The notes beneath the pieces were generated by a model that searched no databases, was not told the origin of the DNA, and saw nothing but the letters and a program-made list of their open reading frames with translations. Source: Marine Group III euryarchaeote CG-Bathy1 (GTDB lineage: Archaea > Thermoplasmatota > Poseidoniia > MGIII > CG-Epi1). Taken from it: a DNA stretch of 39,939 bases. The translations under genes were made by a program, and so were the position numbers. Location: NCBI GenBank assembly GCA_001875425.1, contig MIYU01000012.1, positions 1-39,939 on the forward strand, in the 5' to 3' direction. Positions 14,367 to 19,906 of this stretch are shown here, in pieces (the stretch's first letter is position 1; every line of letters begins with the position of its first letter).

Positions 14367-14573
14367 TTAACGTCTCTCCAATGATTTTGCCTCTCTGGAA
14401 GAATCCATGAGCAATAATACATCTCCAATTGAAATTGGACCTGTAACGTTTCTTTTGATTATACGGCCTTTATCGTTTCCGTCTAAAACTCTAACTTTGA
14501 CCATCTGAGCTTCACCCCTCATGCCAGTTCTATGCATTATCTCTTTGACTTCGGCGGGGACTCCGTCTACCAT
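14367..14573 (-). CDS. rps28e: 30S ribosomal protein S28e
   Basis: 68 residues, the normal length. The OB-fold core VPAEVKEIMHRTGMRGE, then VRVLDGNDKGRIIKRNV and the conserved C-terminal LMDSSREAKSLERR, is diagnostic of S28e. The ATG overlaps the TAA stop of L7Ae by one base, so the two are translationally coupled. Confidence 0.96.
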   Translation of the reverse strand: MVDGVPAEVKEIMHRTGMRGEAQMVKVRVLDGNDKGRIIKRNVTGPISIGDVLLLMDSSREAKSLERR

Positions 14574-14935
14574 TATTCTTTCCTCGCCTCAGTTATAGCC
14601 TTAGTAATCTCATCCAAAGCCCCTTTCTTCTTACCTATATCTACAATAGTTACGGCAGAAGTTGATACTTTCAATCCTGAAGCTTTACCTAATTCTTCCT
14701 TTGAAGGAACGAATGTATAGAATACTACTTTTTCATCACATAACATAGGTATGTGAGCGAGTATTTCTGGTGGCGATACATCTTCTGCTAAGACCACTAA
14801 TTGTGCTTGAGAACGCTCTACGAGTTTTGTTACTTCGTTAGCGCCTCTTCTGAGCTTGCCTTCGTCTCTAGCTGTCTCAACGGCCAGATAGACTTTCTCT
14901 ACGAGTTCTTTTGGTACTTCATATGTTACGAACAT
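14573..14935 (-). CDS. rpl7ae: Ribosomal protein L7Ae (kink-turn binding protein)
   Basis: 120 residues. Binds kink-turns in 23S rRNA, box C/D and H/ACA guide RNAs and RNase P RNA in archaea. The RNA-binding stretch KLRRGANEVTKLVERS and the LVVLAEDVSPPEI and IPMLCDEKVVFYTF segments are hallmarks of the family. First gene of the L7Ae-S28e-L24e-Ndk operon. A TATA-like GATATAAATC at 14953-14962 is about 23 nt upstream; a GAGGTG at 14942-14947 could be a Shine-Dalgarno sequence if transcription starts earlier. It would be the expected partner of the kink-loops in the RNA at 17115-17302. Confidence 0.96.
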   Translation of the reverse strand: MFVTYEVPKELVEKVYLAVETARDEGKLRRGANEVTKLVERSQAQLVVLAEDVSPPEILAHIPMLCDEKVVFYTFVPSKEELGKASGLKVSTSAVTIVDIGKKKGALDEITKAITEARKE

Positions 14936-15649: not shown

Positions 15650-16609
15650 CTATTGTGCAAAAATACGCTCGACGATCCAAGCAGAATCGAATGGCATGAG
15701 ATCCTCATAATCTTGACCGATACCGACGAATGCTATTGGTTTATCTATAGTACTTGAGATACTGAGAGCAGCTCCGCCTTTGGCATCTACATCTAATTTA
15801 GTAAGTATAACTGCATCGAGACCTATAGCTTCATTGAATTTACGGGCCTGTTCTACGGCATCATTACCTGCTAAAGAATCACCTACAAAGATAAAGAAAT
15901 CTGGACTAGCAACACGTTTTATTTTTTTCATTTCATCCATGAGATTTGTGTTTGTTTGCATTCTACCGGCAGTATCTACTAAAACAATATCCAATCCTTT
16001 TGATTTTGCATGTTCGATTGCATCGAAGGCTACAGCTGCTGGATCACCACCCTGCTCATGTGCTATTAATTTACAATTTAGATTTTCGGAATGAGTACGT
16101 AGCTGTTCGATTGCGCCTGCTCTGAACGTATCGGCTGCTGCTAAAACTACGCTTTTATTATTAGATTGAAGCCAATGTGTTAAGCGTGCGATTGCTGTTG
16201 TTTTTCCAGTTCCGTTTACACCAACGAATGCAATAACTAATGGTTTTTTATCAGATTCGAGAAATGTTTTTTGATTGAAATCATTTTTGGAAAGAATTTC
16301 TACTAAACTTGCTTTTAGAGCAGTTTCGATAGTGGATAAAATATCTTTTTTGGAAGAGACCCGCAGTCCCACCAATCTCTCTTTTAGATTTGCACGAATG
16401 AGTTCTATAGTTTCTAATGAGACGTCTGATTCTAACATTGCCAATTCTAAATCCCAAAATAGATTTTCTAGATGAGACTCCTTGATTAATGACCCCGTTT
16501 CTCTCTCTTCTGGGGTGAATTTTTCGTATTCTAGATTCAAATCTGTTTCTAAATCATCAGAAGCCTTTTTTTTGGCTCCGAAAAGTTTTTCTCTTAATGA
16601 TTTGAACAT
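15650..16609 (-). CDS. ftsY: Signal recognition particle receptor FtsY
   Basis: GTPase that docks SRP-ribosome complexes at the membrane. 319 residues: a short acidic N-terminal part (to about 40), the four-helix N domain (about 45-115) and the G domain with P-loop GVNGTGKTT (130-138), the DTFRAGAIEQL motif (160-170), DTAGRM (212-217) and TKLD (about 271-274) followed by the FtsY/SRP54 motif DAKGGAAL. No transmembrane segment; the terminal phenylalanine-rich helix (MFKSLREKLFG) may help membrane binding. The ATG overlaps the pfdA stop by one base; pfdA-ftsY adjacency is conserved in archaea. Confidence 0.96.
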   Translation of the reverse strand: MFKSLREKLFGAKKKASDDLETDLNLEYEKFTPEERETGSLIKESHLENLFWDLELAMLESDVSLETIELIRANLKERLVGLRVSSKKDILSTIETALKASLVEILSKNDFNQKTFLESDKKPLVIAFVGVNGTGKTTAIARLTHWLQSNNKSVVLAAADTFRAGAIEQLRTHSENLNCKLIAHEQGGDPAAVAFDAIEHAKSKGLDIVLVDTAGRMQTNTNLMDEMKKIKRVASPDFFIFVGDSLAGNDAVEQARKFNEAIGLDAVILTKLDVDAKGGAALSISSTIDKPIAFVGIGQDYEDLMPFDSAWIVERIFAQ

Positions 16610-17034
16610 TATTGATCGCCCATTCCTTGCATACGCAATTCATCTAATTTTCTGGCATTTTCCTGATGTTGCATCTGAAGCTTATGAATTGCCTCACTGT
16701 AATCCTTGATAGAATTTGCCGTTTCGTTTAATTTTTCATCTACTCTTTTTAAATTTACAGAAACATCTTCTTCGACATAAACACCGGAGCCTAAATTAGA
16801 AAGTACCTTCTCTGAATTACTTAATTTAGCGAAGATAGAAGAACCGTAACCTATTGGAACTAAAAGTTCACTATCTTTATCCGCTTTACCGATTCCTTCA
16901 AGACTTCTACGTGCTTGAGAGAGTTCATTTTGTAAAGCATGTAATGTCTCAATATGACGAGACCATGCATCGATTTGTGCCTCACATTGTTGAACTGTTT
17001 CCGTCAATATTTGGACATCATCAAGCGTACTCAT
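16609..17034 (-). CDS. pfdA: Prefoldin subunit alpha
   Basis: 141 residues, two long coiled coils (about 5-50 and 90-138) around a beta-hairpin core containing LLVPIGYGSSIFAKL and VLSNLGSGVYVEED. This is the alpha-type prefoldin layout. Hexameric prefoldin holds unfolded polypeptides and hands them to the thermosome. Operon with ftsY and the DUF4286-like gene. The ATG at 17034 lies about 24 nt from an AT-rich element at 17053-17062 that could also serve the divergent RNA gene. Confidence 0.93.
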   Translation of the reverse strand: MSTLDDVQILTETVQQCEAQIDAWSRHIETLHALQNELSQARRSLEGIGKADKDSELLVPIGYGSSIFAKLSNSEKVLSNLGSGVYVEEDVSVNLKRVDEKLNETANSIKDYSEAIHKLQMQHQENARKLDELRMQGMGDQ

Positions 17035-17062: not shown

Positions 17063-17114
17063 GAATTGCACAAAAAGGCATTAGCGATAGTAATAATAAG
17101 CAGCTTAAGGGGGG

Positions 17115-17302
17115 AGAGGAGCAACTTCGAAGAGTGGGCTGATTAATGATGCCTTCTGCAAAGAGTTGCGGACAGGATGCCTTTGGGTCCCCACCGGATT
17201 AATGATGGAAGGGACAACCCCGGCATCATACAAATATCCCGGCTGAGGTCAGGGTCCGGATTCAATTAGTGTGAAGGCACCCGTTACAGCCGGGAAACAT
17301 CT
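17115..17302 (+). ncRNA. Three-hairpin H/ACA box guide RNA (pseudouridylation guide)
   Basis: A GC-rich island between protein genes folds into three tandem hairpins of the same plan. Hairpin 1: lower stem 17121-17126/17164-17169, then ACA at 17172-17174. Hairpin 2: lower stem 17176-17181/17222-17227, upper stem 17187-17191/17211-17215, ACA at 17230-17232. Hairpin 3: lower stem 17238-17245/17287-17294, upper stem 17252-17255/17279-17282, ACA at 17297-17299. Each tip is a kink-loop, the L7Ae target: CUGA..UGAUG (17139-17151), CGGA..UGAUG (17195-17207), CGGA..UGAAG (17257-17276). In each hairpin the top of the 3' pocket strand is 14 nt from its ACA (14-15 in hairpin 1), the H/ACA rule. Pocket 3 (AGGTCA and GTTA) is complementary to UAAC-UN-UGACCU, which fits helix 69 of 23S rRNA with the target at E. 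coli position 1915. Ends are approximate. Confidence 0.82.
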
Positions 17303-17303
17303 G

Positions 17304-17311
17304 TATTTTTT
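17304..17311 (+). terminator. T-run terminator of the guide RNA
   Basis: Six consecutive T residues (17306-17311) follow the last hairpin and its ACA box. Archaeal transcription commonly stops at such T-runs. It separates the RNA from the glycosyltransferase gene that starts 60 nt later. Confidence 0.5.
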
Positions 17312-17372: not shown

Positions 17373-18383
17373 ATGGGTGAAAAAAAATCTAGACTGGCTG
17401 TACTAGTGAGTACTGAAACTTTCATAAAACCTTTCAGGGAACAATTTAGTGAAGACTTTAGACTATCTTGGTGGAAAATCCCTTATACTCCACCACCAAA
17501 AAGACTCGTTGATTACTTAATATTTCCATACAAATTGATGATTAAAAAAGTAAAAACTATGATGTCGTTGATTAGGAGTGAAGTTATTTTTGTTGAATTT
17601 GCTAATGAGACTCTTGCTTTAGCCTCTAAATGGAAAGGGAAGAGAACACTTGTTACGAGACTGCATAGATATGAATTATTTCAACTTCCAAAAGCAAAAT
17701 GGGAAGCTATCGATGCAATCATAGTAGTGAACAAAAGAATGAAAGAACTTCTTGAAGAGAAATTACCTCAAATGGAAGGAAAAATACATTGTATACCGAA
17801 TTACCTAGATACGGCTTATTGGACCCCTAAAGAAAACAAAACCAAAACTAATCAAATTGCAATTGTTGGAACTGTAGAACCTCGAAAAGGTCATGACAAA
17901 GCAATAGTGGCATTTTCAAAAATAGTGAAGAAAAATCCCGATTTGAGATTGAATATAATAGGCGTAAATAATGACAAAGAATTTTCCAAAACATTAAGAA
18001 GATTGGCTGAAGATTTGAAATTGCGAGATAAGATAAGATTTTTGGGTTTTTCTGAAAATATTAAGAAAGATTTTCAGGACTCAGATATTATAGTATCCTT
18101 TTCTGAACATGAATCAACACATCTGACTCTCTTTGAAGGGTTATCGTGTGGTGCATGGCCACTTAGCACTACTTGGGATGGTGTAGAAGAATTCCTTCCA
18201 AAAGAAAATTTATTCAATGATGATAAGGAATTTGTAAAAAAAGTGAAAAAGTTTTATACGCTTAGTGATGAAGAAAGAATAGAGAAAATAAGAGAATTGG
18301 CAAAGGAGAGATTAACGAAATTTACAGACCCTGATCCTAGAAATGAGATATCTAAACTAATATTAAAAACCCATAAAAAATAG
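17373..18383 (+). CDS. Glycosyltransferase, GT-B fold (GT4-like)
   Basis: 336 residues, no signal peptide or transmembrane helix. The C-terminal Rossmann domain has AIVGTVEPRKGHDKAI (about 168-183), the IRFLGF strand and the E-x7-E-type motif EHESTHLTLFEGLSCG (about 246-261), which binds the nucleotide-sugar donor. The N-terminal acceptor domain is divergent. Donor and acceptor unknown. With the flippase next to it (2-bp gap, convergent) it probably works on a lipid-linked glycan. Starts at ATG 17373; a GAGGGAAAG purine stretch lies about 8 nt upstream. Confidence 0.87.
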   Translation: MGEKKSRLAVLVSTETFIKPFREQFSEDFRLSWWKIPYTPPPKRLVDYLIFPYKLMIKKVKTMMSLIRSEVIFVEFANETLALASKWKGKRTLVTRLHRYELFQLPKAKWEAIDAIIVVNKRMKELLEEKLPQMEGKIHCIPNYLDTAYWTPKENKTKTNQIAIVGTVEPRKGHDKAIVAFSKIVKKNPDLRLNIIGVNNDKEFSKTLRRLAEDLKLRDKIRFLGFSENIKKDFQDSDIIVSFSEHESTHLTLFEGLSCGAWPLSTTWDGVEEFLPKENLFNDDKEFVKKVKKFYTLSDEERIEKIRELAKERLTKFTDPDPRNEISKLILKTHKK

Positions 18384-18385
18384 AA

Positions 18386-19906
18386 TTATTCTTTTAATTC
18401 TTTCTTAACATAAGATAGCATCTTAAATGGATTAATTACATCATAAAGGTAATCGAAATCTGCTCTTTTGAATCCCCCGATAGCAGAGAGAATTGCGAAA
18501 TATAGAAATGCACCGAGACCTGAAACTAAGAATAACGTATACCAACGCAAAACTTCTGTATCCAAATACCATGCACTTAGTTTAGATAATAAGAATGCTG
18601 TGATTATGGCAGAGATTATTTGTTTTCCTAAACTTAAAGAAGGTGCGATGCCTAACTTTGTAAATGAGAAAAATCTTAATCCAAGGCAAGCAATAGAGTA
18701 AGAAGAAAGTATTGCTAAAGCTGCCCCTTCAGCTCCTAAACCTGGTAAATCATACAGGCCTAAATGTGGTATTTCCTTGGGAACTAAGTACAGCATTAAA
18801 ACCAATGAAGAAATTGTACTGAGTATCCCTATAGCAGACGTAATATCTGGCCTATCTGCACCCCTCAGTGCAATTGACCAAGGCCTATTAGATATCATAA
18901 TTAAAGAACCTAAAACGAGAATTTGTAAAGCCCTACTAGCATCTACAAAATCATTACTTAATAGAATTCGAATTATGTCTGAAGAAAACATATAGACCAC
19001 CACTACAACAGGCATGCTGACCATTAGAGTGTACCTTTCTGATCTATGAATCAACCCAGATAAACCTCCACTTTTTTCCTGATGAATTTTAGAAACCGCA
19101 GGTAAGAGCATATACTCTAAAGAAAGGGCAATAGTTCCTAAAAATAGAGCTATTCGTTGAACAGCATAGTATTGTCCTACTTCCGTTTCTGTCCAGAATA
19201 TGCCTACAATTATTTTATCGAAAAATGTGTTAACTATACCTACAATTGAAAGGACTGCTAAAGGTACTGCATATTTGACGTAAGAATTAACAAAAGCTCT
19301 GTCTGTTTTTTCTATAGAGTAATCCTTGAAATACCAAAACATAAAAAATGTTGCTAAAATAGCTCCAATAAGATAAGCATTAGCAAGCCAGATAACTTTC
19401 CATGCGAAAAGAGCTGTAAAAATCATAATAATAGCTCGAGACCCCTCTGCAATCAAATTTGTAATAGCTACCTTGGCACCTTGTTGAAGGCCTGTAAAAG
19501 TGTCCTTCATTATTCCTGAATAGATAGTAATAACATAATAGGCTAAAATCGATAGAAGAACTTCAATTCTTACATCATAAAATTGTTTATCCAATATAGA
19601 AGTCCAACTCCAATAGAAAATACCAAAAGCAATTAGCATCAAAAATAAAAGAGCCGTTTGTACAACGAAAAAAGTACCAATGCACTTGGCTAAATTCTTT
19701 CCTTCGCTAACTCTTTTTATGTGTGCATTTCTAAAACCTAAATAAGCAAGAAAAGTAAAACCGCCAACTAAACTTAAAGCATATGCAATCTCGCCTAAAG
19801 CATCTGGACCCATATTCCTAGCAACTACAAAAAGAGCGACCCAACCAATTAGCGCATTTATGATTTCAACGCCGAACATTAAGGTGACTTTGCGTGAAGT
19901 AGGCAC
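18386..19906 (-). CDS. Polysaccharide/oligosaccharide flippase (Wzx-like, MOP superfamily)
   Basis: 506 residues with about 12-14 hydrophobic segments from residue 8 to 490. The N-terminal segment RKVTLMFGVEIINALIGWVALFVVAR followed by a GP-x-x-LGEIAYA motif is typical of the RfbX/Wzx family in the MOP superfamily. It likely moves lipid-linked oligosaccharides (in archaea on dolichol carriers) across the membrane for protein glycosylation or surface polysaccharide. Starts with GTG at 19906. Flanked by glycosyltransferase and PfkB kinase genes. Confidence 0.88.
   Translation of the reverse strand: MPTSRKVTLMFGVEIINALIGWVALFVVARNMGPDALGEIAYALSLVGGFTFLAYLGFRNAHIKRVSEGKNLAKCIGTFFVVQTALLFLMLIAFGIFYWSWTSILDKQFYDVRIEVLLSILAYYVITIYSGIMKDTFTGLQQGAKVAITNLIAEGSRAIIMIFTALFAWKVIWLANAYLIGAILATFFMFWYFKDYSIEKTDRAFVNSYVKYAVPLAVLSIVGIVNTFFDKIIVGIFWTETEVGQYYAVQRIALFLGTIALSLEYMLLPAVSKIHQEKSGGLSGLIHRSERYTLMVSMPVVVVVYMFSSDIIRILLSNDFVDASRALQILVLGSLIMISNRPWSIALRGADRPDITSAIGILSTISSLVLMLYLVPKEIPHLGLYDLPGLGAEGAALAILSSYSIACLGLRFFSFTKLGIAPSLSLGKQIISAIITAFLLSKLSAWYLDTEVLRWYTLFLVSGLGAFLYFAILSAIGGFKRADFDYLYDVINPFKMLSYVKKELKE

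Follow-up and report, generated by a model that had tools for sequence, protein, structure and literature searches.

The window analysed here is a stretch of 39,939 nucleotides (nts) of contig MIYU01000012.1 from the 1.04-Mb draft genome of the Marine Group III euryarchaeote CG-Bathy1. Between its pfdA gene, which encodes prefoldin alpha, and a glycosyltransferase gene is a stretch with a G+C content of ~53% (that of the surroundings is 35%), and in it are three tandem hairpins built to a single plan of lower stem, pocket, upper stem, kink-loop and ACA (Table 1). The RNA specified is almost certainly an archaeal box H/ACA guide, predicted for three 23S ribosomal RNA (rRNA) pseudouridines, and the best explanation of the locus is that it is an orthologue of the HgcG/Pab40/Pf7 box H/ACA small RNA. 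The initial annotation, made from the letters of the sequence, had proposed a three-hairpin H/ACA guide RNA at this position; the match to HgcG, the covariation and the 23S sites described below all support it, and the observation of three hairpins is confirmed.

Counted from the start of the 3′ pocket, the ACA comes exactly 14 nts later in all three hairpins (17158 to 17172, 17216 to 17230 and 17283 to 17297), so that the alternative of 15 nts allowed earlier for hairpin 1 falls away. The kink-loop halves, CUGA/UGAUG, CGGA/GAUGG and CGGA/GAAGG in hairpins 1, 2 and 3 respectively, have tandem G-A in each case, and kink-loops had been noted at the outset. A small correction concerns hairpin 2, in whose minimum-energy fold the pocket is not open, GGG being paired with the CCC on its 3′ side.

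Table 1. Positions in the window of the RNA gene, its parts and neighbouring genes
Feature	Position	Strand	Basis or remark
Three-hairpin H/ACA guide RNA gene, HgcG/Pab40/Pf7 type	17119..17302	+	Rfam RF00064 and covariance models; ends approximate
Rfam RF00064 match	17069-17304	+	50.1 bits, E 6e-13
Matches of models R1/R2 (built from relatives)	17114-17302	+	
Hairpin 1	17121..17169	+	fold, covariation, single 23S site
Hairpin 1 lower stem	17121-17126/17164-17169	+	
Hairpin 1 5′ guide UCGAAG	17127-17132	+	
Hairpin 1 upper stem	17133-17139/17151-17157	+	
Hairpin 1 3′ guide GCAA	17158-17161	+	
Hairpin 1 ACA box	17172..17174	+	14 nt past 3′ pocket top
Hairpin 2	17176..17227	+	lower-stem covariation, near-invariant guides, 23S site
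Hairpin 2 lower stem	17176-17181/17222-17227	+	
Hairpin 2 probable 5′ guide GGUC	17186-17189	+	overlaps upper stem
Hairpin 2 upper stem	17187-17191/17211-17215	+	
Hairpin 2 3′ guide AACCC	17216-17220	+	
Hairpin 2 ACA box	17230..17232	+	14 nt past 3′ pocket top
Hairpin 3	17237..17295	+	fold z = -3.2, covariation, 23S site
Hairpin 3 lower stem, nine pairs	17237-17245/17287-17295	+	
Hairpin 3 5′ guide GGUCA	17247-17251	+	
Hairpin 3 upper stem	17252-17257/17276-17282	+	
Hairpin 3 3′ guide GUUA	17283-17286	+	
Hairpin 3 ACA box	17297..17299	+	14 nt past 3′ pocket top
L7Ae gene (kink-turn binder, H/ACA ribonucleoprotein subunit)	14573..14935	-	TIGR03677, 141.1 bits vs cut-off 134.6
ftsY and pfdA	15650..17034	-	NCBIfam and tblastn vs relatives' loci; divergent from RNA gene
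pfdA (prefoldin alpha)	16609-17034	-	
Glycosyltransferase gene	17373-18383	+	~70 nt 3′ of RNA gene, same strand

Homology and covariation

At gathering thresholds an Rfam scan reveals just two transfer RNAs (tRNAs) in the window. With a permissive scan of the region, RF00064 (HgcG, Pab40) matches over its full model (positions 1–276) at 50.1 bits and E = 6e-13, and the next-best family is no better than E = 7. Default annotation misses the RNA because this score is below the curated cut-off, and the same is so more widely, since in none of 146 class genomes does the HgcG score rise above it. A DNA search finds one copy in 12 of the 21 genomes of the family, and a covariance model built from family members finds one match per genome in 110 of 195 class genomes, with all three families of the class represented. 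A wider model, from a set of 46 sequences, extends to 154 of 245 genomes of the phylum and 73 of its 120 genera (the E-values of models built from relatives are rough, and the weaker phylum matches were inspected at 20 loci only). Among the named records that carry the hairpin 2 sequence are those of Marine Group III euryarchaeotes, for example CG-Epi1.

For the family (16 genomes), 95.4% of the stem cells in the alignment are paired, both sides have changed in 17 of 41 pairs, and the covariation score is 0.327, with 0.139 for shuffled alignments and at most 0.091 when the structure is slid. The sequence of the window is one base shorter in hairpin 1 in this alignment. With the 46 distinct sequences of the class the pairs changed on both sides become 37 of 43 and the score 0.645; shuffling lowers it to 0.197 and sliding to 0.119 or less, and of these controls the slid one is the fairer here as the alignment was fitted to the structure. 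Covariation is present in all three hairpins, and the only pairs that never vary are the three basal pairs of the upper stem of hairpin 2. In the same 46 sequences the stems are rewritten while the pocket bases are kept: CGAAG/GCAA in hairpin 1, GGUCC with GAC(A)ACC in hairpin 2 (where GGUC, GAC and ACC are near-invariant) and GGUCA/GUUA in hairpin 3. The kink-loops of all three hairpins are, by inspection, retained in relatives. The boxes are kept too, with that of hairpin 1 or hairpin 3 being AAA (ANA) and not ACA in many of them. The initial annotation had proposed a covariance-model search, a search for compensatory changes in marine relatives and an examination of motif conservation as checks on its reading, and the full-length model match, the paired changes and the kept motifs bear it out on each.

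Guides and their predicted 23S rRNA targets

Targets were sought as the reverse complement of the 3′ guide, then U-N, then the reverse complement of the 5′ guide, in the organism's own 23S rRNA (recovered in pieces); the scan was limited to 23S. Only one site, UUGC-[UA]-CUUCGA, fits hairpin 1, and hairpin 3 has a top site, GUAAC-[UA]-UGACC, with a runner-up at one third of its score. Both have canonical geometry, for both an equal score is reached with shuffled guides in 1 of 400 cases, and both predictions are strong. The first site we take to be the equivalent of Escherichia coli U2496, by our own count from A2503, which adjoins the peptidyl-transferase centre, and the third, matched by sequence to E. 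coli rRNA, is U1915 in the loop of helix 69.

The pseudouridines of this part of Thermococcus kodakarensis 23S rRNA include Ψ2589, 2592 and 2607 (PMC6138745), and placing site 1 at 2592 puts uridines at −3 and +15, as the published spacing requires. From this fit, site 1 would be U2592 of T. kodakarensis and U2588 of Pyrococcus abyssi, which Pab40 guides in vitro (PMC6138745). At the helix 69 site, P. abyssi 2016, the guide is Pab40.3 (PMC4652768). Hairpins 1, 2 and 3 are thus the counterparts, in order, of hairpins I, II and III of Pf7/Pab40, with the established target predicted to be shared for I and III. The archaeal large subunit rRNA consensus at site 1 is ACcUCGA, whereas this class has ACUUCGA, and the 5′ guide of hairpin 1, cGAgG in the HgcG consensus, is CGAAG here. 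Site and guide thus appear to have changed in matching fashion, a deduction from consensus lines.

Several observations weigh against a guide RNA of this kind. Hairpins 1 and 2 do not stand out in fold energy (z = −0.8 and −1.3, with −3.2 for hairpin 3 and −1.7 for the whole region), the HgcG score is under the Rfam gathering cut-off of 77 bits (a curation threshold and not a biological feature), and for hairpin 2 with a standard upper stem the best 23S site is no better than with shuffled guides (151 of 400). A promoter shared by all relatives was also sought upstream and none was convincing; no single distance for a common TATA position was found upstream of the relatives' copies, partly because those of Marine Group II carry another hairpin there. 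Single-sequence folding was rejected as proof of structure, its z-scores being too weak, and it is homology and covariation, not thermodynamics, that place the RNA beyond chance. The weak z-scores seen for hairpins 1 and 2 would suit hairpins formed by chance where intergenic DNA is GC-rich, or a decayed pseudogene, an explanation of negligible probability that the covariation and the pockets conserved in 46 sequences refute; further, all three ACA boxes and all the guides are intact in the window.

For hairpin 2 a canonical pocket was rejected, its best 23S sites being at the level of shuffles. With three pairs of the upper stem opened, GGUC and AACCC become complementary to GGGUU-[UA]-GACC, an outcome equalled in 18 of 400 shuffles, and there is one top 23S site with a runner-up at less than half its score. 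This site is a probable target; matched by sequence to E. coli rRNA, it is U2586, which is part of the peptidyl-transferase loop. That GUC-GAC at the foot of the upper stem is the same in all 46 sequences, while the rest of the hairpin covaries, would fit a use of these bases both in the stem and for guiding. For the hairpin 2 site another Pab40 structure has already been proposed, and Pf7 stem II has a Haloferax homologue whose proposed target is 2621 (in Haloarcula marismortui numbering, where 2621 is E. coli 2586 and 1956 is E. coli 1915; PMC2584109). All three target sites are identical in 13 class genomes, the 23S match of a fourteenth being fragmentary. Some members (L063, L065, L067, L081-L083) have UACCC in place of AACCC as the 3′ guide of hairpin 2, giving a U-U mismatch beside the target U; where their 23S was read, the rRNA site is unchanged.

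Variation in hairpin content among relatives

An additional hairpin is present ~75 nts upstream of hairpin 1 in L057, L063, L072, L081 and other loci of families f2 and f3 (taken to be Marine Group II by inference from class membership); it does not occur in the window. It has invariant pocket bases, GCAAC/ACC, a UGA...UGA kink motif, and covariation that is strongest in the upper stem. Its best 23S site is GGU-[UU]-GUUGC in all 5 genomes tested, presumably at about E. coli 2606; no ANA box was seen at the usual distance from it in the f2/f3 loci. The element is probably a fourth H/ACA-type hairpin. It would be a new variant, since archaeal H/ACA RNAs have, according to a review, one to three hairpins (PMC7991803). 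A combined proposal is advanced tentatively: that Marine Group II has a four-hairpin guide and that the GUC of hairpin 2 is a class-wide switch between stem and guide, whereby a single RNA would guide modification at four positions, in the neighbourhood of helix 69 and the peptidyl-transferase centre.

Forms with two hairpins, either 1 and 2 (L124-L128) or 2 and 3 (L131-L134), are seen by eye among the phylum's other families, which suggests lineage-specific hairpin loss. At L007, L010, L015 and other loci of genus g2, a further G+C-rich hairpin of UUCG type (GGCCGUCUUCGGGCGGCC) is just 3′ of hairpin 3 and is followed by a T-rich stretch; it is possibly a terminator or processing signal. One contig labelled Candidatus Neomarinimicrobiota (L095; SCKS01000120.1) bears a Marine Group III RNA with ftsY and pfdA, and its label is most likely due to contamination.

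Genomic neighbourhood

Comparison with relatives' loci by tblastn shows that the pfdA-ftsY neighbourhood of the RNA gene is kept in Marine Group III, and no such neighbourhood was found around the RNA in the class's other two families. Downstream, the glycosyltransferase gene and one for a Wzx-like flippase occupy 17373-19906; the glycosyltransferase is absent from this place in relatives. The L7Ae gene is 2.2 kb from the RNA gene, and the genome also encodes Cbf5, Nop10 and Gar1.

The intergenic position so close ahead of a same-strand gene could be that of a structured RNA with another job, either a cis-regulatory leader of the glycosyltransferase or an antisense RNA, carrying L7Ae-type motifs, and L7Ae does bind kink-turns in RNAs other than H/ACA. 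This is very improbable, as it is pfdA and ftsY and not the glycosyltransferase that accompany the RNA in relatives, and as the pockets match 23S rRNA, two of the three in canonical geometry.

The divergence in gene context bears on a different possibility, that H/ACA RNAs of independent origin have come to resemble HgcG through convergence on the same conserved rRNA sites and not through orthology. In favour of this, conserved rRNA determines what the guide bases must be, the bit score is below the HgcG cut-off, and the pfdA-ftsY context is not common to the class. However, hairpins I-II-III and their targets are in the same order as in Pf7/Pab40 (PMC2584109, PMC4652768), the HgcG model aligns from end to end, and the family spans the phylum; convergence is unlikely. 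As the Rfam score cut-off is not reached, HgcG membership rests on the hairpin order, the end-to-end model alignment and target identity.

Proposed mode of action

The analysis shows the structure, the covariation, the conserved guides, their match to 23S rRNA of the same organism, and the presence of the protein genes; we infer transcription, ribonucleoprotein assembly and modification. After transcription from the + strand, L7Ae would be bound by the kink-loop of each hairpin, and Cbf5-Nop10-Gar1 by its stems and ACA box. The pocket halves would then pair with the 23S rRNA flanking an unpaired U-N, and Cbf5 would convert the unpaired U to pseudouridine, the predicted targets (E. coli numbering) being U2496 for hairpin 1, U2586 for hairpin 2 and U1915 for hairpin 3. 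The least certain step is targeting by hairpin 2, since its 5′ guide GGUC could reach the target GACC only after the loss of three upper-stem pairs.

A single gene would in this way account for pseudouridines in the peptidyl-transferase centre as well as in helix 69, and would do so for a marine archaeal class that is abundant and uncultured and, further, for its phylum. The Rfam cut-off for HgcG conceals an orthologous family that a model from marine relatives recovers. With hairpins gained in some lineages and lost in others, it becomes possible to trace directly how guide content has evolved.

Comparison with known systems

The kind of RNA is already known. Earlier work describes HgcG/Pab40/Pf7 from Pyrococcus and Archaeoglobus, and from Haloferax, where its hairpins are separate (PMC4652768, PMC2584109). 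The initial annotation knew of no description of this gene, which stands to the extent that a literature search of partial coverage found no report of H/ACA RNAs in these archaea, though not for the type of RNA. As far as the searched literature shows, what is new is that it occurs in Marine Group III, Marine Group II and the phylum, that default Rfam annotation does not see it, and that its hairpin content varies with lineage.

Like the HgcG/Pab40/Pf7 RNA of Thermococcales (RF00064), the RNA described here has three hairpins in the same order, matches the model over its full length, and has predicted sites equivalent to P. abyssi 2588 for hairpin 1 and 2016 for hairpin 3. Unlike it, it is shorter (~185 nts), it has a hairpin 1 guide that appears changed along with its rRNA site, and it scores under the Rfam cut-off. 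The pocket of hairpin 2 is also short, whereas Pab40.2 has a 23-nt 3′ guide and is assigned to L1932 (PMC4652768). For Archaeoglobus fulgidus Afu4 the comparison is of the Af4.3 target only: Af4.3, related to Pab40.3, guides L1970 in helix 69 (PMC4652768), and hairpin 3 here fits the equivalent site. HP1 and HP2 of Haloferax volcanii (Hvo1, Hvo2) have the same 23S sites as those predicted for hairpins 2 and 3 (2621 and 1956/1958 in H. marismortui; PMC2584109), but there the hairpins are separate, whereas here the three are contiguous.
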